From assembly GCF_947387515.1 (NCBI RefSeq), contig NZ_CANDOB010000003.1:1-64000 (forward strand): DNA of 64,000 bases, given 5' to 3'. Each line of letters starts with the position of its first letter. Within the stretch, counting starts at the first letter, position 1. The stretch is from Alkalihalobacillus sp. CinArs1 (GTDB lineage: Bacteria; Bacillota; Bacilli; Bacillales; Guptibacillaceae). A program made the translations under genes and the position numbers. Below, piece after piece: positions 33,041 to 64,000 of this stretch. The notes below the pieces were generated by a model. That model was not told the DNA's origin. It was given only the letters and a program-made list of their open reading frames with translations, and did no database searches.

Positions 33041-33208
33041 TCTTCTTATTCAGAGAGGTGGAGGGACTGGCCCTTTGATACCTCGGCAACGGATTCCTAT
33101 AAATGTTATACGGGAGCACCGTGCCAATTCCTGCGGCGAAAGTCGGAAAATAAGAAGAGGCGATCGGTAAATCCAAACCCTCTTCTGTTCGGGCAGATGA
33201 GGGTTTTT
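33041..33208 (+). ncRNA. SAM-I (S-box) riboswitch with terminator/antiterminator
   Basis: P1 is a perfect 10-bp helix (TCTTCTTATT 33041-33050 with AATAAGAAGA 33149-33158). The S-box core AGAGGTGGAGGGACTGGCCC and CGGCAAC follow. The switch can be traced: AGAAGAGG (33153-33160, P1 3' strand) can pair with CCTCTTCT (33179-33186) as antiterminator, or the latter joins the terminator AAACCCTC/GAGGGTTT (33175-33206, T-run). SAM binding stabilises P1 and so favours termination. It controls the FbpA-MsrA gene. Confidence 0.95.
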
Positions 33209-36526: not shown

Positions 36527-36599
36527 ATGCCCACAACGATTACGTGGTAAGCTATACTGAGATAAGGAAAGATTTCATGAAGAAGAAGGGATGTTTAGA

Positions 36600-38747
36600 T
36601 TGGAAGCAGTATGTATTATTGCGGAAAAGCCAGACCAAGGCTCAAGATTAGCCGCTCCTTATCCCTCTGAAAAAAAACAAGGATACATCTACATTAAACC
36701 TACACCTGATTTTCCGGGTGGTGCTTATGTAACGTGGGCAGTAGGACATCTCTGCGAATTAGTCCCTCCTGAAACCTATAAGTCAGAATGGAAGAAATGG
36801 TCGTTACAGACTTTACCGATGATTCCAGAGCAATTTCAATATCAAGTTACAAAAAGTAAATGGAAGCAATTCAATGTCATAAAAGACATCGTACATAGGA
36901 AAGACGTAGGATCCATTATTCATGCAGGTGATGCCGGTCGCGAAGGTGAGTTGATCGTGAGGACGATCTTGAATCAGGTTCGCAGCAAAAAACCGATGAA
37001 GCGACTATGGATATCATCTTTAACGGAAAAAGCTGTTAAAGAAGGGTTTAGAGCTTTACGGAGTGAAAGTGATACACGGAACTTGTATTTCGAAGCTTAT
37101 GCACGTTCTTGCGCAGACTGGGTTGTGGGAATCAACGCATCGAGGGCATACACGCTTTTATTTAAACAGAAAGGAATCCAGGATGTCTTTTCAGCTGGAA
37201 GAGTTCAAACGCCAACTTTAGCTTTAGTTGTTAAGCGTGAAAAAGAGATCGCAAACTTCAAATCTGAACCGTTTTGGGAAGTTAAAGGGACATTCGATTA
37301 CAATGGTCAAAAGGTAGTCGGAAAGTGGATAAAAGAAGATAAGACGAGAATCGATACTCCGGAGATGGCTAATGCGATCGCCTCTTTTTGTCTCAATAAA
37401 CCATGCCGGGCCAGTGATGTAAAAAAAGAAAGGAAACAATATAAACCTCCTTATCTATTTCAGTTATCGTCACTCCAATCTGCAGCGAACAAGAAGTATA
37501 AGTTCTCACCGAAAAAAACACTCGATATCGCACAGAAACTTTACACAAAAGGGATGATATCGTACCCGCGAAGTGATTCGAGTTTTGTAACGACAGAGGA
37601 AGCTGCAGAATTTCCGTCAATTCTCTCTAAACTCCAGAAGCAAGACGCATATAAAGAGTTTTTTCCATTAGCAAAACAATCCATCATGAACGATAAGCGA
37701 TATGTGAATGCCTCAAAAGTGAGTGATCACTACGCGATCATTCCAACGGAGCAGGTTCCTAAACTAGAAAAGCTATCTGGTGAGGAGTCAAAAATCTATG
37801 ACCTTATCGCAAGAAGCTTACTCGCTGCACATGAAGATGTCGCAATCGTCGATTATACGACATTAACGACTTTAGTAGATGATCGTGCAGAATTTGTATC
37901 TAAGGGACAAGTGAAAGTTCAAGAAGGATGGCATAAGGTCATAAACTCAACGCAAAAAGACGAAGTTCTACCTCAAATCGACAAAGGGCAGGCTGGGACT
38001 GTATTATCTATGGATGTAGTAGAGGGCAAAACGCAGCCTCCAAAACGATTTACAGAGGGTCAGCTCATTACGATGATGAAAACAGCAGGAAAACATCTTG
38101 AAGATGAATCGTTAGAAAAAGTGCTTAAAGACACAGAAGGGCTTGGAACGGAAGCCACCCGTGCGGGCATAATAACGATGCTGAAAGATCGAAAATATAT
38201 CGAAGTCGTCAAAAACCAGGTTTCAGCAACGGAAAAAGGAATATTACTCATCGACTCGATCGGGGAAGCAGTACTTGCAAGTCCAGAAATGACTGCAAAA
38301 TGGGAGCAGAGGTTAAAAGAGATCGGAAGTGGACACGCTTCACCTCAAGCTTTCATGGAATCAGTTAAGAAGCTAGCTGCAAAATTAACAGAAGATGCGA
38401 TTCGATCTTCAGAGTCATGGGATACAAAAGGAATTACAATCGAACCCTCGACAACTTCAAAGAAAGCTCTTGGAAAAAAGGTTGGAATGTGTCCACTATG
38501 TGGCGCGGATGTTATTGATAAAGGGAAATTATATGGATGTAGCGGTTATTCCAAGAACAAATGCCCATTTACGTTATCAAAACGAATCCTTGGAAAACAA
38601 GTTTCACAAGCAAATGCTAAGAAAATACTTAAAGATGGTAAATCGAATATAATAAAAGGGTTAAAAGGCAAGAAAGGATCTTTTGACGCTGCATTGGTAT
38701 GGAATGCGGCTGATAAGAAACTAACTTTCGAGTTTGATAGAAAATAA
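36600..38747 (+). CDS. topB: DNA topoisomerase III
   Basis: 715 residues if started at the TTG at 36600, about ten bases after AGAAGGG; the ATG at 36591 is one base from it. The toprim domain has IIAEKPDQGSRLA and HAGDAGREGEL. The catalytic Tyr is in MISYPRSDSSF. Domains of the type IA gate follow (VFSAGRVQTPTLALV). A C-terminal zinc-finger-like region with CPLCGADVIDKGKLYGCSGY and a further Cys completes it. It relaxes and decatenates DNA through single-strand passage. Bacillus TopB length is similar. No neighbouring partner gene is apparent. Confidence 0.95.
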   Translation: MEAVCIIAEKPDQGSRLAAPYPSEKKQGYIYIKPTPDFPGGAYVTWAVGHLCELVPPETYKSEWKKWSLQTLPMIPEQFQYQVTKSKWKQFNVIKDIVHRKDVGSIIHAGDAGREGELIVRTILNQVRSKKPMKRLWISSLTEKAVKEGFRALRSESDTRNLYFEAYARSCADWVVGINASRAYTLLFKQKGIQDVFSAGRVQTPTLALVVKREKEIANFKSEPFWEVKGTFDYNGQKVVGKWIKEDKTRIDTPEMANAIASFCLNKPCRASDVKKERKQYKPPYLFQLSSLQSAANKKYKFSPKKTLDIAQKLYTKGMISYPRSDSSFVTTEEAAEFPSILSKLQKQDAYKEFFPLAKQSIMNDKRYVNASKVSDHYAIIPTEQVPKLEKLSGEESKIYDLIARSLLAAHEDVAIVDYTTLTTLVDDRAEFVSKGQVKVQEGWHKVINSTQKDEVLPQIDKGQAGTVLSMDVVEGKTQPPKRFTEGQLITMMKTAGKHLEDESLEKVLKDTEGLGTEATRAGIITMLKDRKYIEVVKNQVSATEKGILLIDSIGEAVLASPEMTAKWEQRLKEIGSGHASPQAFMESVKKLAAKLTEDAIRSSESWDTKGITIEPSTTSKKALGKKVGMCPLCGADVIDKGKLYGCSGYSKNKCPFTLSKRILGKQVSQANAKKILKDGKSNIIKGLKGKKGSFDAALVWNAADKKLTFEFDRK

Positions 38748-38752
38748 CATGA

Positions 38753-38780
38753 GCACGCTCCTTTTCGAGGGGGGGGGGCT
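38753..38780 (+). terminator. degenerate terminator with a 10-G run after topB
   Basis: GCACGCTCCT-TTTCGA followed by ten G (38769-38778). The first 21 bases from 38752 match 39175-39195 at 19 of 21 positions, but here the 3' arm is replaced by the G-run, so the stem is weak. See the finding on paired flanking hairpins. Confidence 0.55.
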
Positions 38781-39006
38781 TCAGGCTATTGATAAATTCT
38801 ATAGAGGTATGTCTAAAGGAATAGGAGTGAATTGCGAACGCCCCTTTCCAATGGACGGTGAGCAACCTCACACTCGTCTCGCTTGAATCGAGAAGTCTTC
38901 CGCACCTCGTTCTCGTAAGGTTAATTATCCAAATTAAGAAGTTCATTGAATTGATATGTTTTGTAAGTATAATCGTTCGGAAAGTTTATATTGTTTGAAT
39001 GTTTTT
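38781..39006. other. non-coding segment with several small hairpins
   Basis: No plausible gene with a ribosome site. From 38820 to 38925 the sequence forms small hairpins: GTGAG/CTCAC (38858-38871), CTCG/CGAG (38878-38892), CGAGAA/TTCTCG (38889-38915). The ORFs on both strands are shadows. It may be a second repeated element or a structured RNA. The remaining part is AT-rich and shows nothing. Confidence 0.45.
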
Positions 39007-39136
39007 TAGTAGGAGCGAATACCTCATGACTCCCGTGGTCCAACGGGCGTTCGAGACACGAAGGGGACGGTTTTTGTCCGCTTTGATGCTCGGGCGTTCG
39101 TCCACAGGAAAGCATGAGGTATTCTTGCTCCTACGT
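39007..39136 (+). repeat. 130-nt structured repeat, copy 1
   Basis: Gap-free 130-base element, 118 of 130 bases identical to 62985-63114. Ends GTAGGAGC...GCTCCTAC close a 20-bp stem (39009-39028 with 39113-39134, one 2-base bulge). Within the stem two base pairs change together between copies: T-A to G-C (39020/39121) and C-G to T-A (39016/39127). The interior holds a GGAC/GTCC hairpin around TTTTT. It is either a structured RNA or a MITE-like element with long terminal inverted repeats. Confidence 0.85.
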
Positions 39137-39175
39137 CATTGGGATCATCATACGTCAGGTTTTCTACAAATTGAA

Positions 39176-39206
39176 GCACGCTCCTCATCGAGGGGCGTGC
39201 TTTTTT
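39176..39206 (+). terminator. intact terminator after the repeat
   Basis: GCACGCTCCTC/GAGG-GCGTGC stem with loop ATC and one unpaired G, then T6. Its 5' half duplicates the degenerate hairpin at 38752-38778. Confidence 0.9.
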
Positions 39207-39245
39207 ATTGTTTATAAAATAATTTTTAAAATATCTAAAAACCTA

Positions 39246-39308: not shown

Positions 39309-40346
39309 GTGAAAGCAGGTATTGTAGGTGCAAGTGGATATAGCGGACTAGAATTGATACGAATATTGCTTCAACATCCGCACATAAAAATTGATACGAT
39401 CGTATCTCCATCGAATACAGAAATGAGAGTAGAAGAAGTGTTTCCACATCTTAAAGATCTTGTCATAGAGGAGTTCGATTCCCTTCAATGTGAGGAGCTT
39501 GCCAATAAGGTAGACGTCGTCTTTTTTGCTACTCCTGCCGGTGTTAGCTCTGAGTCTATCCCAACGTTGCTCAAATTAGGTGTTCCATGTATAGATTTAT
39601 CTGGAGATTTCAGATTGAAGGGTGAAGGAACATACGAAGAGTGGTATAAACATACATCACCACCAAAAGAGGTGTTAAATAAAGCCGTGTACGGTTTGCC
39701 GGAATTCTATCGTGAAGACATTTCCACAGCAGCTTTAATTGCGAACCCAGGCTGTTATCCGACTGCGACCTTACTTGGTATTCTGCCAGTCCTAAAACGA
39801 AAGTGGGGTAACCCGGCTACGTTAATCATAGATGGCAAATCAGGGTTATCTGGTGCAGGACGAAAGATTAGCCAAACAACACATTATTCTGAAGTTAACG
39901 AGAACATATCGGCTTATAAACTAGGGAAACATCAGCACATCCCAGAGATTGAACAAATTTTGTCAGATCAAATTGACATGGATAGTCGTGTTACTTTCTC
40001 AACTCATCTAATCCCATTAACGAGGGGGATGATGTGCAGTATGTACATTGATTTAACTGAATCGAAAACAACAAGTGACATCATTGAACTATATCGCTCT
40101 TATTATGACGATCATCCTTTTATCCGAATTATGCCTGAAGGAAAGTGGCCAACACCAAAAGGAGTATCTGGATCGAACTATTGCGATATTGGATTTTCAG
40201 TAGATCCTAGAACAAATCGCTTAACCGTCATTTCAGTAATCGATAACTTGATGAAAGGTGCAGCAGGGCAGGCAGTACAAAATATGAATCTACACTTCGG
40301 ATTACCTGAAAAAGCAGGTTTAGAACTTACGCCTGTATTCCCATGA
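39309..40346 (+). CDS. argC: N-acetyl-gamma-glutamyl-phosphate reductase
   Basis: 345 residues, GTG start at 39309. Nucleotide-binding GIVGASGYSGLEL at the N-terminus, the catalytic Cys in IANPGCYPTAT and the conserved SGLSGAGRK segment. It reduces acetylglutamyl phosphate to the semialdehyde with NADPH, the third step of ornithine synthesis. First gene of argCJBD-carAB-argF. Confidence 0.97.
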   Translation: MKAGIVGASGYSGLELIRILLQHPHIKIDTIVSPSNTEMRVEEVFPHLKDLVIEEFDSLQCEELANKVDVVFFATPAGVSSESIPTLLKLGVPCIDLSGDFRLKGEGTYEEWYKHTSPPKEVLNKAVYGLPEFYREDISTAALIANPGCYPTATLLGILPVLKRKWGNPATLIIDGKSGLSGAGRKISQTTHYSEVNENISAYKLGKHQHIPEIEQILSDQIDMDSRVTFSTHLIPLTRGMMCSMYIDLTESKTTSDIIELYRSYYDDHPFIRIMPEGKWPTPKGVSGSNYCDIGFSVDPRTNRLTVISVIDNLMKGAAGQAVQNMNLHFGLPEKAGLELTPVFP

Positions 40347-58659: not shown

Positions 58660-58768
58660 TCTCCAGAAAAAGGCAAACCATTCTAAAGAATGGGACGCAA
58701 AGACACAGGTCTAATGTTGAGAACATTCAACGATGACGGCTGGTCCTCCTGGAAATATCAAAGGAGGA
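58660..58768 (+). ncRNA. cyclic-di-GMP-I (GEMM) riboswitch with SD-sequestering hairpin
   Basis: The aptamer core matches the GEMM-I consensus: GGCAAACC (58672-58679), P2 CCATTC-TAAA-GAATGG (58678-58693) with a GNRA-like loop, GACGCAAAG (58694-58702), and a P3 arm containing GTTGA/TCAAC (58716-58731). CCAG/CTGG (58663-58666, 58740-58743) can close it. Directly downstream TCCTCCT (58744-58750) pairs with AGGAGGA (58762-58768), the Shine-Dalgarno of the next gene, so control is at translation. Whether ligand turns it on or off cannot be read. Confidence 0.92.
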
Positions 58769-61331: not shown

Positions 61332-61360
61332 ACCAAATATTGTTCTCAAGGGAGTGGACC

Positions 61361-62761
61361 ATGATGGGTAAGCAACAACGTTTTCTCCTTCTAACATTCC
61401 TCCTAGGAGTATTCTTAGGCGCATTAGACTCAGGTGTGATTTCACCTGCTTTAACCACATTGGTTAAAGAACTCGATATCGATTTGAAATTTACTGTATG
61501 GGTCGTTACGATCTACACCCTTGTTTACGCAGTCAGTATGCCGATTATCGGTAAGCTGGCAGATCTTTATGGTAGGAAGCGAATATTCCTTGTTGGGATA
61601 TTCCTGTTAGCTCTCGGTTCTCTTATTGCAGGTATAAGTGGGTCACTCCTACAGCTTTTAACAGGAAGAGCGATTCAAGCAGCAGGAGCTGGAGGTATTA
61701 TTCCTATTGCAAACGCTGTTATCGGGAGTAGTTTTCCTAAAGAGAAGAGAGGAATGGCGCTCGGATTGATAGGAGCCATGTTCGGAATCGCTTCTATTCT
61801 CGGACCTGCTGTAGGAGGATTTTTAGTTGCTCACGTAAGCTGGCGATGGATTTTCTTCATGAATATCCCCATTGCTTTCATCATCTTTCTTATGGCATTA
61901 AAGCTGCCGTTAGAAGAACAAAAGGGATACCGTTCGAGGCTTGATTGGAAGGGAGCTCTTTTCCTATCCGTCATTATTGTTTCGTTATTACTCGGATTGA
62001 CAAATCTGGATACGAATAACCTTATCGAATCTTTTACAACGTTAACAGTATGGCCGTTATTACTCTTTAGTATTGTTTTAGTTTATCCATTATTAACGAT
62101 AGAAGCTTCGCATAGTGATCCAATCATCAACATTTCATATTTCCGTAATCGAAATATTGTCTTAGCGTTGTTAATCTCAACGATTACCGGAATAGGGATC
62201 ATAAGCATGATCTTTATCCCTTCTTTTTCAGAGCTGCTTTTGGGGCTTTCAACCGGAAGAGGGGGGTATGTCATGGTTATCCTAGCTCTTGCTTCTGGAT
62301 TCGCTGCACCGATCGGAGGTGTTTTACTCGATAAATGGGGAGCAAAACAAGTTGTGCTCACTGGCTTTAGTTTGAGTTTAATAGGGGCACTCATTTTTAG
62401 TTTCCTAGCAAACGGATGGCTAATGCTTATCATAGGTATGATTTTTTCTGGGGTCGGCATAGGATTTACAATGGGTACTCCTCTTAACTACATTATGTTT
62501 GAGCTCACGTCAGAGAAAGAAGCAGGTGCAAGTCAATCTCTCGTTAGTTTGTTCCGTTCGATCGGAACATCGCTTGGCCCAGTGATATTAGCAGGGTTCA
62601 TTGCAGTTTCAGCAAGTGATAAAACGATTGTTTCCATAGAAAAAAGTACAGTACTAGCCGGGTATGAGAGAATGTACCTAGCAAGCGTAGTAATATTTCT
62701 ACTTGGAATGATACTAGCGTTCTTCTTGAAGCTTCCATCTAAGAAAAGTGAGACTTTGTAG
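61361..62761 (+). CDS. MFS transporter, DHA2 (14-TMS) type
   Basis: 466 residues from the ATG at 61361, six bases after AAGGGAG; a longer in-frame TTG start (61340) overlaps that site. About 14 hydrophobic segments. Motif [12 protein letters not shown] is in the loop after TM2, and motif C-like LGPAVGGFL is in TM5. Proton-coupled multidrug or solute exporter by family; the substrate is not known. No divergent regulator is adjacent. Confidence 0.88.
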
Positions 62762-62799
62762 CATAAAAATCGAACGTGCTAAGTCGTAAAAAATATAAA

Positions 62800-62823
62800 G
62801 GGTGAGACAAAAATGTCTCATCC
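62800..62823. terminator. weak hairpin after MFS gene
   Basis: GGGTGAGAC/GTCTCATCC with the loop AAAAAT and one G-T wobble. It lacks a T-run. It is the partner of the stronger hairpin at 63151-63178 (23 of 28 bases alike). Confidence 0.7.
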
Positions 62824-62984
62824 TCGTATTGTTGAAGTGTCTTAAGAGCTATCTTCAAATAGATTGTAGTGATTTGTTCAATAGAATGTATAAAGGGATT
62901 TTTGGAAGAATACAACTCCAACTAAAGGAAAGAGAAATTGTTAGCTTATTAGGTCGGGGAGTTTAACTTGAGAACTATGTATTC

Positions 62985-63114
62985 TAGTAGGAGTGAAGAC
63001 CTCATGACCCCCGTGGTCCAACGTGCGTTCGAGACTCGGAGTGGACGGTTTTTGTCCGCTTTGAGGCTCGGGCGTTCGTCCACAGGAAAGCATGAGGTCT
63101 TCAAACTCCTACGT
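62985..63114 (+). repeat. 130-nt structured repeat, copy 2
   Basis: See copy 1 (39007-39136), same orientation and length, no gaps. Closing stem 62987-63006 with 63091-63112. Compensatory pairs here are G-C (62998/63099) and T-A (62994/63105). The 2-base bulge reads AA in place of TT. Between MFS gene and LysR gene; no gene with a ribosome site in 62762-63216. Confidence 0.85.
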
Positions 63115-63150
63115 TATCAGAACCTCAAAATTCTGGCTACTTTATCACCT

Positions 63151-63185
63151 AAGGATGAGACTTCAATGTCTCATCCTTTTTCTAT
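63151..63185 (+). terminator. strong terminator after the repeat
   Basis: AAGGATGAGAC/GTCTCATCCTT, 11-bp stem, loop TTCAAT, then TTTTCTATTT. Confidence 0.92.
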
Positions 63186-63216: not shown

Positions 63217-64000
63217 TTATTGGCCAAAGCGGTTAAGAACTTCATAAAAATGGGTAAGAAATTCAAAAAACTTCCTTTCGGATGGAGCGAGATCTCTTCC
63301 GACTGGAATAATTACCCCAACTGTTCTCGTTACATTGGGCTCGGATAGTTCAATCTTGACCGTTTCCGGGGGTAATTGTTCAGAAAGCGTGATTTCAGGC
63401 AGCAAGCTCACTCCAAGGCCTGCCGCAACAAGGCCTTTAATCGTATCGATGTCTTCCCCTTCAAACGCGATACGTGGTTTAAAGCCCACTTGCTGACATG
63501 CTGAAGTAACGAGATGATGTAACGCATATCCAGAACGAAACAGTACAAAAGGATCGTTCTTCAGTTGGCCGAGCCTGACCATTGGATTGTCAGCTAACGG
63601 ATGATTAAACGGAAGGAGGGCGAGAAGCTTCTCTGTAAAGAATATATGACCTTCTACATCTGTACGATCTTTCGGGACAGGAGAGACGAAAGCTAGATCG
63701 ATTTCGCCTTTACTGACTGCCTCAGTTAATTCTTGTAAGGAACCTTGACGAAGTTGAAACCCAACGCTTGGATGCTCATTCCTAAATGCAGAAATTACAG
63801 TGGGGAGGGTTTTTGCTGCAAGACTGTTTGGAAATCCCACACGAATGGTTCCAGTTTCGGGGTTTAAATATTCATGAACAGCTTGTGTCGCTCTTTCAAT
63901 TTCTGCAATAGCAGTCTCAGCATGATCTTTAAAAATGTGTCCTACTTGCGTCAACTTTACGTTTCTTCCTTCACGAAAGAACAGCTGAACACCAAGTTCT
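63217..64000 (-). CDS. LysR-family regulator, GltC-like (partial, runs off the window)
   Basis: 261 codons visible; the reading frame continues open to 64000 with ELGVQLFFREGRNVKL, the end of the LysR winged helix, so the N-terminal HTH lies outside the window. The apparent start at 63954 is internal. The substrate-binding domain begins about residue 36 of the visible part (GTIRVGFPNSLAAKTLPTVI) and contains EGEDIDTIKGLVAAGLGVSLLP. This pattern is very close to B. subtilis GltC, the activator of glutamate synthase, though the neighbouring gltAB cannot be seen. Confidence 0.88.
   Translation of the reverse strand, partial: ELGVQLFFREGRNVKLTQVGHIFKDHAETAIAEIERATQAVHEYLNPETGTIRVGFPNSLAAKTLPTVISAFRNEHPSVGFQLRQGSLQELTEAVSKGEIDLAFVSPVPKDRTDVEGHIFFTEKLLALLPFNHPLADNPMVRLGQLKNDPFVLFRSGYALHHLVTSACQQVGFKPRIAFEGEDIDTIKGLVAAGLGVSLLPEITLSEQLPPETVKIELSEPNVTRTVGVIIPVGRDLAPSERKFFEFLTHFYEVLNRFGQ

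Follow-up and report, generated by a model that had tools for sequence, protein, structure and literature searches.

A repeated 130-nt hairpin of Alkalihalobacillus sp. CinArs1 is a module of an IS1182-type MITE found between duplicated terminator hairpins

The stretch of DNA analyzed in our study, hereafter the window, comprises 64,000 nucleotides of Alkalihalobacillus sp. CinArs1 (GCF_947387515.1, contig NZ_CANDOB010000003.1, positions 1 to 64,000). It contains a 130-nt repeat in two copies, one between topB and argC (39007-39136) and the other between an MFS transporter gene and a convergent gene with a LysR substrate-binding domain (62985-63114); all features are collected in Table 1. Our study confirms the preliminary description of this DNA in that the two copies are identical at 118 of 130 positions in an ungapped alignment, that both lie on the + strand in intergenic regions with a terminator immediately 3' of them, and that two of their stem pairs differ in a compensatory way (T-A/G-C at alignment columns 14-116 and C-G/T-A at columns 10-122). 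Each copy folds into a single near-complete hairpin (-76.8 and -78.7 kcal/mol, with z of -9.7 and -11.2). In the first copy, CGGGCGTTCG is present twice (39043-39052 and 39092-39101), as direct repeats that also pair with each other through G-U pairs. The earlier statement that no named RNA family matches the repeat also holds, as no Rfam family was reached for it at the gathering threshold, whether the window or full-length elements were scanned; at relaxed thresholds, the weak matches fall mainly on the terminator, and no family was assigned. Elsewhere in the window, a SAM riboswitch (33043-33156) and a c-di-GMP-I riboswitch (58662-58752) score above their Rfam thresholds.

Table 1. Genes, MITE copies and duplicated terminator hairpins at the two window sites.
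Feature	Position	Strand	Evidence and remarks
topB (DNA topoisomerase III-like), gene whose terminator was hit	36591..38747	+	Pfam PF01131
Copy 1, left target-site duplication: topB terminator hairpin without T-tract	38752..38772	.	19/21 identical to 39175-39195
Copy 1, whole MITE, 392 bp	38782..39173	+	ends CAGGCTATTGATAAA and CAATTTGTAGAAAAC match IS1182-type terminal repeats; absent from 13 relatives
Copy 1, degenerate remnant of hairpin H1 (approximate limits)	38839..38907	+	weak local alignment to H1 region of full A. algicola element
Copy 1, internal hairpin H2	39007..39136	+	fold, covariation
Copy 1, right target-site duplication; working terminator together with 39196-39206	39175..39195	.	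hairpin 39172-39208, -23.8 kcal/mol, then T-tract
argC (semialdehyde dehydrogenase family), downstream gene	39309..40346	+	Pfam PF22698, PF01118
MFS transporter gene, upstream of copy 2	61340..62761	+	Pfam PF07690
Copy 2, left target-site duplication: terminator hairpin	62799..62824	.	-16.5 kcal/mol; direct repeat of 63152-63177
Copy 2, whole MITE, 327 bp, H1 not detected	62825..63151	+	left end CGTATTGTTGAAGTGTCTTAA resembles CAGATTGTTGAGAAAGTCTTAA; ends diverged, set by eye with the help of the flanking repeats
Copy 2, internal hairpin H2	62985..63114	+	fold, covariation
Copy 2, right target-site duplication with T-tract: working terminator	63152..63177	.	hairpin, -17.7 kcal/mol
Convergent gene, LysR substrate-binding domain, downstream of copy 2	63217..63954	-	Pfam PF03466

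Conservation among the aligned copies extends well beyond the 130 nt, which represent only one module of a longer element, namely its right-hand hairpin (H2). The genome-wide search that had been proposed for further copies gave 17 hits in the window genome, some of which are the two halves of shortened copies, leaving about 14 elements. Among 14 genomes of the genus, the sole other one with clear H2 copies is that of Alkalihalobacillus algicola (G001), with 31 hits and about 28 elements. When the exact core pattern of H2 was searched in 84,980 species, a set that may have left out the window genome's own record, it was present in Alkalihalobacillus algicola AmN0-13 only. A full A. algicola copy has about 450 bp and is made up of the left end CAGATTGTTGAGAAAGTCTTAA, a first hairpin (H1), a spacer, H2 and the right end (reverse complement CAGTTTGTAGAGAAACTTG). 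Complete copies bear terminal inverted repeats, CAGATTGTTGAGAAAG / CAGTTTGTAGAGAAAC; those of the A. algicola copies, CAGATTGTTGAGAAA and CAGTTTGTAGAGAAA, are degraded in the window copies. Some copies are devoid of the apical part of H2, which was apparently lost by deletion between the two CGGGCGTTCG repeats, as in the short variants L012, L014 and L016. The orientation of the copies relative to genes was called from open reading frames, and these calls are too noisy to yield an estimate of bias.

The H1 hairpin (about 137 nt; L072 1501-1638) belongs to a very large repeat family, with matches in 75 of the 120 genomes screened from the order, more than 200 candidate places in several of them and 80-90% identity between families; Rfam gives no match for it. 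In several genomes, H1 also stands alone within elements of about 216-250 bp that have different inverted ends, AGGCTSTTTTC..TTGTTGCT (L073, L097, L207-L209), which suggests that a second type of MITE carries the same hairpin module. H1 and H2 themselves appear to be inverted relatives: two intermediates, L013 and L054, align to the reverse complement of H1 with scores of 48 and 43, where shuffles reached 29 at most, and direct alignment of H1 with H2 in the window copies remains at chance level.

At both window sites, the element has on its upstream side a further copy of the hairpin from the downstream terminator, and this copy abuts the left end of the element. The flanking repeats are AGCACGCTCCTTTTCGAGGGG and AGCACGCTCCTCATCGAGGGG for copy 1 and AGGGTGAGACAAAAATGTCTCATCCT and AGGATGAGACTTCAATGTCTCATCCT for copy 2, the latter pair (62799-62824 and 63152-63177) being identical at 22 of 26 positions, as counted by hand. 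In the 18 copies with identifiable ends, a set from which L005, L007, L008, L011, L017, L018 and L056 were excluded by hand for miscalled or rearranged ends, the two flanks aligned with each other with a score of at least 12 in 16 cases, compared with none of 306 mismatched left-right pairings. The flanking repeats of these 16 copies are mostly palindromes of 18-31 bp. Empty sites are found in the relatives. Between topB and argC, each of 13 further genomes of the genus has a single terminator and lacks the element. The element is likewise absent from the MFS-LysR site of all 13 relatives, and most of them have a single terminator there; G001 has a different downstream context, and G002 has a different, H1-containing element. 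This G002 element (L200, 3' of the MFS gene) is an H1-type MITE of the other kind, and it lies in the same gap that copy 2 occupies in the window.

IS1182-family transposases (NF033551, above the cut-off) are present in the genus beside the same ends as those of the MITE. In the window genome no IS1182 transposase was detected, and its copies are therefore probably stranded. The IS1182 elements of G001, G004 and G012 have MITE-like ends, with CAGGTTGTCGAGAAAG or CAGGCTGTCGAGAAAG at one end and CAGCTTGTAGAGGAACC at the other, and they are themselves flanked by hairpin repeats; one A. algicola insertion is split by contig ends, and a single 31-bp hairpin recurs in both parts, next to the left end on one contig and next to the right end on a second. 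One A. algicola MITE copy (L018 1501-1760) adjoins the right end of an IS1182 element, and past that end the outer terminator occurs again; this is a nested or recombined insertion.

The same pattern extends across the order, where 29 IS1182 insertions with CAG ends are flanked by direct repeats of 17-42 bp, exact or with one mismatch, every one of a different sequence. These repeats have a median folding energy of -13.1 kcal/mol, compared with -0.6 for random 24-mers, and 26 of the 29 adjoin a T- or A-tract; the length of the duplication tracks that of the hairpin, with no fixed size. A further case, L106, was read by eye and brings the total to 30 insertions, and in two insertion sequences with rearranged flanks (L108 and L109) matching hairpins were not seen. 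In a maximum-likelihood tree, support of 100/97 unites the CAG-ended transposases in one group, to the exclusion of other IS1182. This group comprises all nine that were tested together with three additional ones, namely L106 and two whose flanks are incomplete or rearranged. Other IS1182 subgroups were considered as the source and rejected, their ends being AGAGGCTGGGACA, with no direct repeat, or GAGACCAGTGAAAAA, with a repeat of 8-9 bp. The CAG-ended IS1182 insertion sequences of the order are the probable source of the transposase of the MITE. Our study has thus found dispersed non-coding copies, terminal inverted repeats, a target-site duplication, empty sites and an autonomous relative with the same ends, all of them criteria for a MITE, and the element is a non-autonomous IS1182-type MITE of about 230-475 bp with H2 as its right-hand hairpin. 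It has very probably been inserted in terminators with duplication of their hairpins.

The preliminary description had left open whether the repeat is a structured RNA or a MITE. The second proposal is borne out, and a stand-alone RNA gene with its own terminator is rejected because the terminator is also duplicated upstream and is single in relatives: the strong terminator noted 3' of each repeat is a duplicated insertion target. Many copies and target-site duplications, which had been named as signs against the RNA reading, were both found. It is nevertheless important to consider the covariation of H2, of which 96.5% of cells are paired across 25 copies, with changes on both sides at 12 of 42 pairs; none of 500 shuffles gave covariation as high, and it lies far above that of slid structures. 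The + strand of H2 gives a better fold than the complementary strand in 24 of the 25 copies and has 5.96 G-U pairs against 2.6. Such covariation and strand bias exceed what a purely inert element needs, and this counts against reading the MITE as a relic. H2 might accordingly be a functional structured RNA, either a small RNA or a stable element of the 3' UTR that protects upstream mRNAs, which was spread by the transposon but retained on account of its RNA structure, a proposal to which the numerous H1 relatives throughout the order also lend support. It has to be set against the behavior of the individual loci, where pairing is not kept (21 of 34 changes private to a single copy break a pair), against insertion sites that are not conserved between species, against the lack of strand preference in H1 and against the lack of an Rfam match. 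We regard such an RNA as improbable, with a role in the source element or in stabilizing upstream mRNAs conceivable. The earlier claim that pairing is under selection consequently holds for the source elements, since shared variants keep the pair in 55 of 72 cells, and fails for individual copies. The H2 palindrome is maintained in the active lineage and decays after insertion; because private changes mostly break pairs, it is kept in source elements rather than site by site.

Two further explanations concern the origin of these patterns rather than their function. The compensatory changes could stem from hairpin-templated correction (quasipalindrome mutation) instead of selection on pairing, and in favor of this, six of the 34 private events are double changes in which the pair is preserved. 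Private broken pairs are far more numerous, however, so that such correction would be inefficient, and the double changes are equally well explained by unsampled intermediate subfamilies; we consider this explanation unlikely, albeit somewhat less so than a functional RNA. The doubled terminator, for its part, could be a tandem pair or a regulatory device that arose by gene conversion, with the repeat inserted in between at a later time. The two hairpins are indeed often both preserved, with differences mainly in the loop, but in most copies the repeats abut the ends of the element exactly, relatives have a single terminator, and exact repeats in the same arrangement flank 30 unrelated autonomous insertion sequences. 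The autonomous elements refute this proposal as a general rule, and we give it almost no credence; it could survive only at single sites, such as the diverged copy 2.

Insertion of the MITE with hairpin duplication could be brought about as follows. An IS1182-type transposase supplied in trans would recognize a terminator hairpin, probably as an extruded cruciform, and would join the ends of the element at the base of the stem, with one joint per strand. These two joints would be far apart on linear DNA and adjacent at a four-way junction. Repair of the gaps would then double the hairpin, and the product would have an A-tract and stem on its left and a stem and T-tract on its right. The evidence for the cruciform-junction step is the geometry of the duplications, and we see its chances as about even. 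Genes reading from either side could still meet a complete terminator; the flanking genes would keep a working one, and the insertion would do little harm. H1 and H2 would have remained palindromic in mobile source elements, and the window copies would be stranded relics that at most lengthen the 3' UTR of the upstream gene.

The repeat is a relic of a mobile element rather than a new RNA gene, and its choice of target and the duplication of that target are what is unusual about it. Landing in intrinsic terminators and doubling them is a recurrent rule in many genomes, and it provides a signature by which to search for such elements, namely an identical terminator hairpin present twice at a distance of about 0.3-1.7 kb. 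It also calls for caution in RNA-discovery pipelines, as covarying repeats next to terminators can be MITEs, and it offers a test case both for transposases that read DNA structure over sequence and for duplication versus deletion within one family.

With regard to known systems, duplication of hairpins by IS1182 elements is not described in the open literature that we searched, which excluded one main review and ISfinder. ISfinder allows variable repeats in the IS1182 family. Within this family, a target that is defined by its structure and then duplicated appears to represent a variant. The CAG-ended IS1182 insertion sequences (L033, L034, L101, L103-L105, L107 and others) have the same ends as the MITE and the same terminator-hairpin duplication, and differ from it in their size of 1.5-1.7 kb and their intact transposase gene, whereas the MITE has no gene and two long hairpins. 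Families in Rfam share with H2 a conserved, covarying hairpin, but their gathering score is not reached. RUP and other foldback bacterial MITEs (reviewed in PMC10969869) are likewise short, non-coding and intergenic, with terminal inverted repeats and tens of copies; their target and duplication are short and fixed, whereas here a complete terminator of variable length is duplicated. It has been reported that IS1272 and TnSha1, both of the IS1182 family, have 16-bp terminal repeats and target hairpins without sequence preference, several of these being transcription terminators, and that IS1272 removes its target hairpin wholly or partly without target duplication (PMC4923244, PMC5678879). The transposase family and the hairpin targets are the same in our case, but the ends are CAGnnTGTnGAsAAA, and hairpin replacement of the IS1272 type was not found, the whole target hairpin being doubled instead of removed. 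The IS1182 clade with these ends and the MITEs derived from it may target intrinsic-terminator hairpins by structure and duplicate the whole hairpin, with no fixed length and with working terminators left on both sides, and the deletion by IS1272 would then follow if the same cruciform junction were attacked on its two remaining strands, a generalization that we hold to be evenly balanced between true and false.
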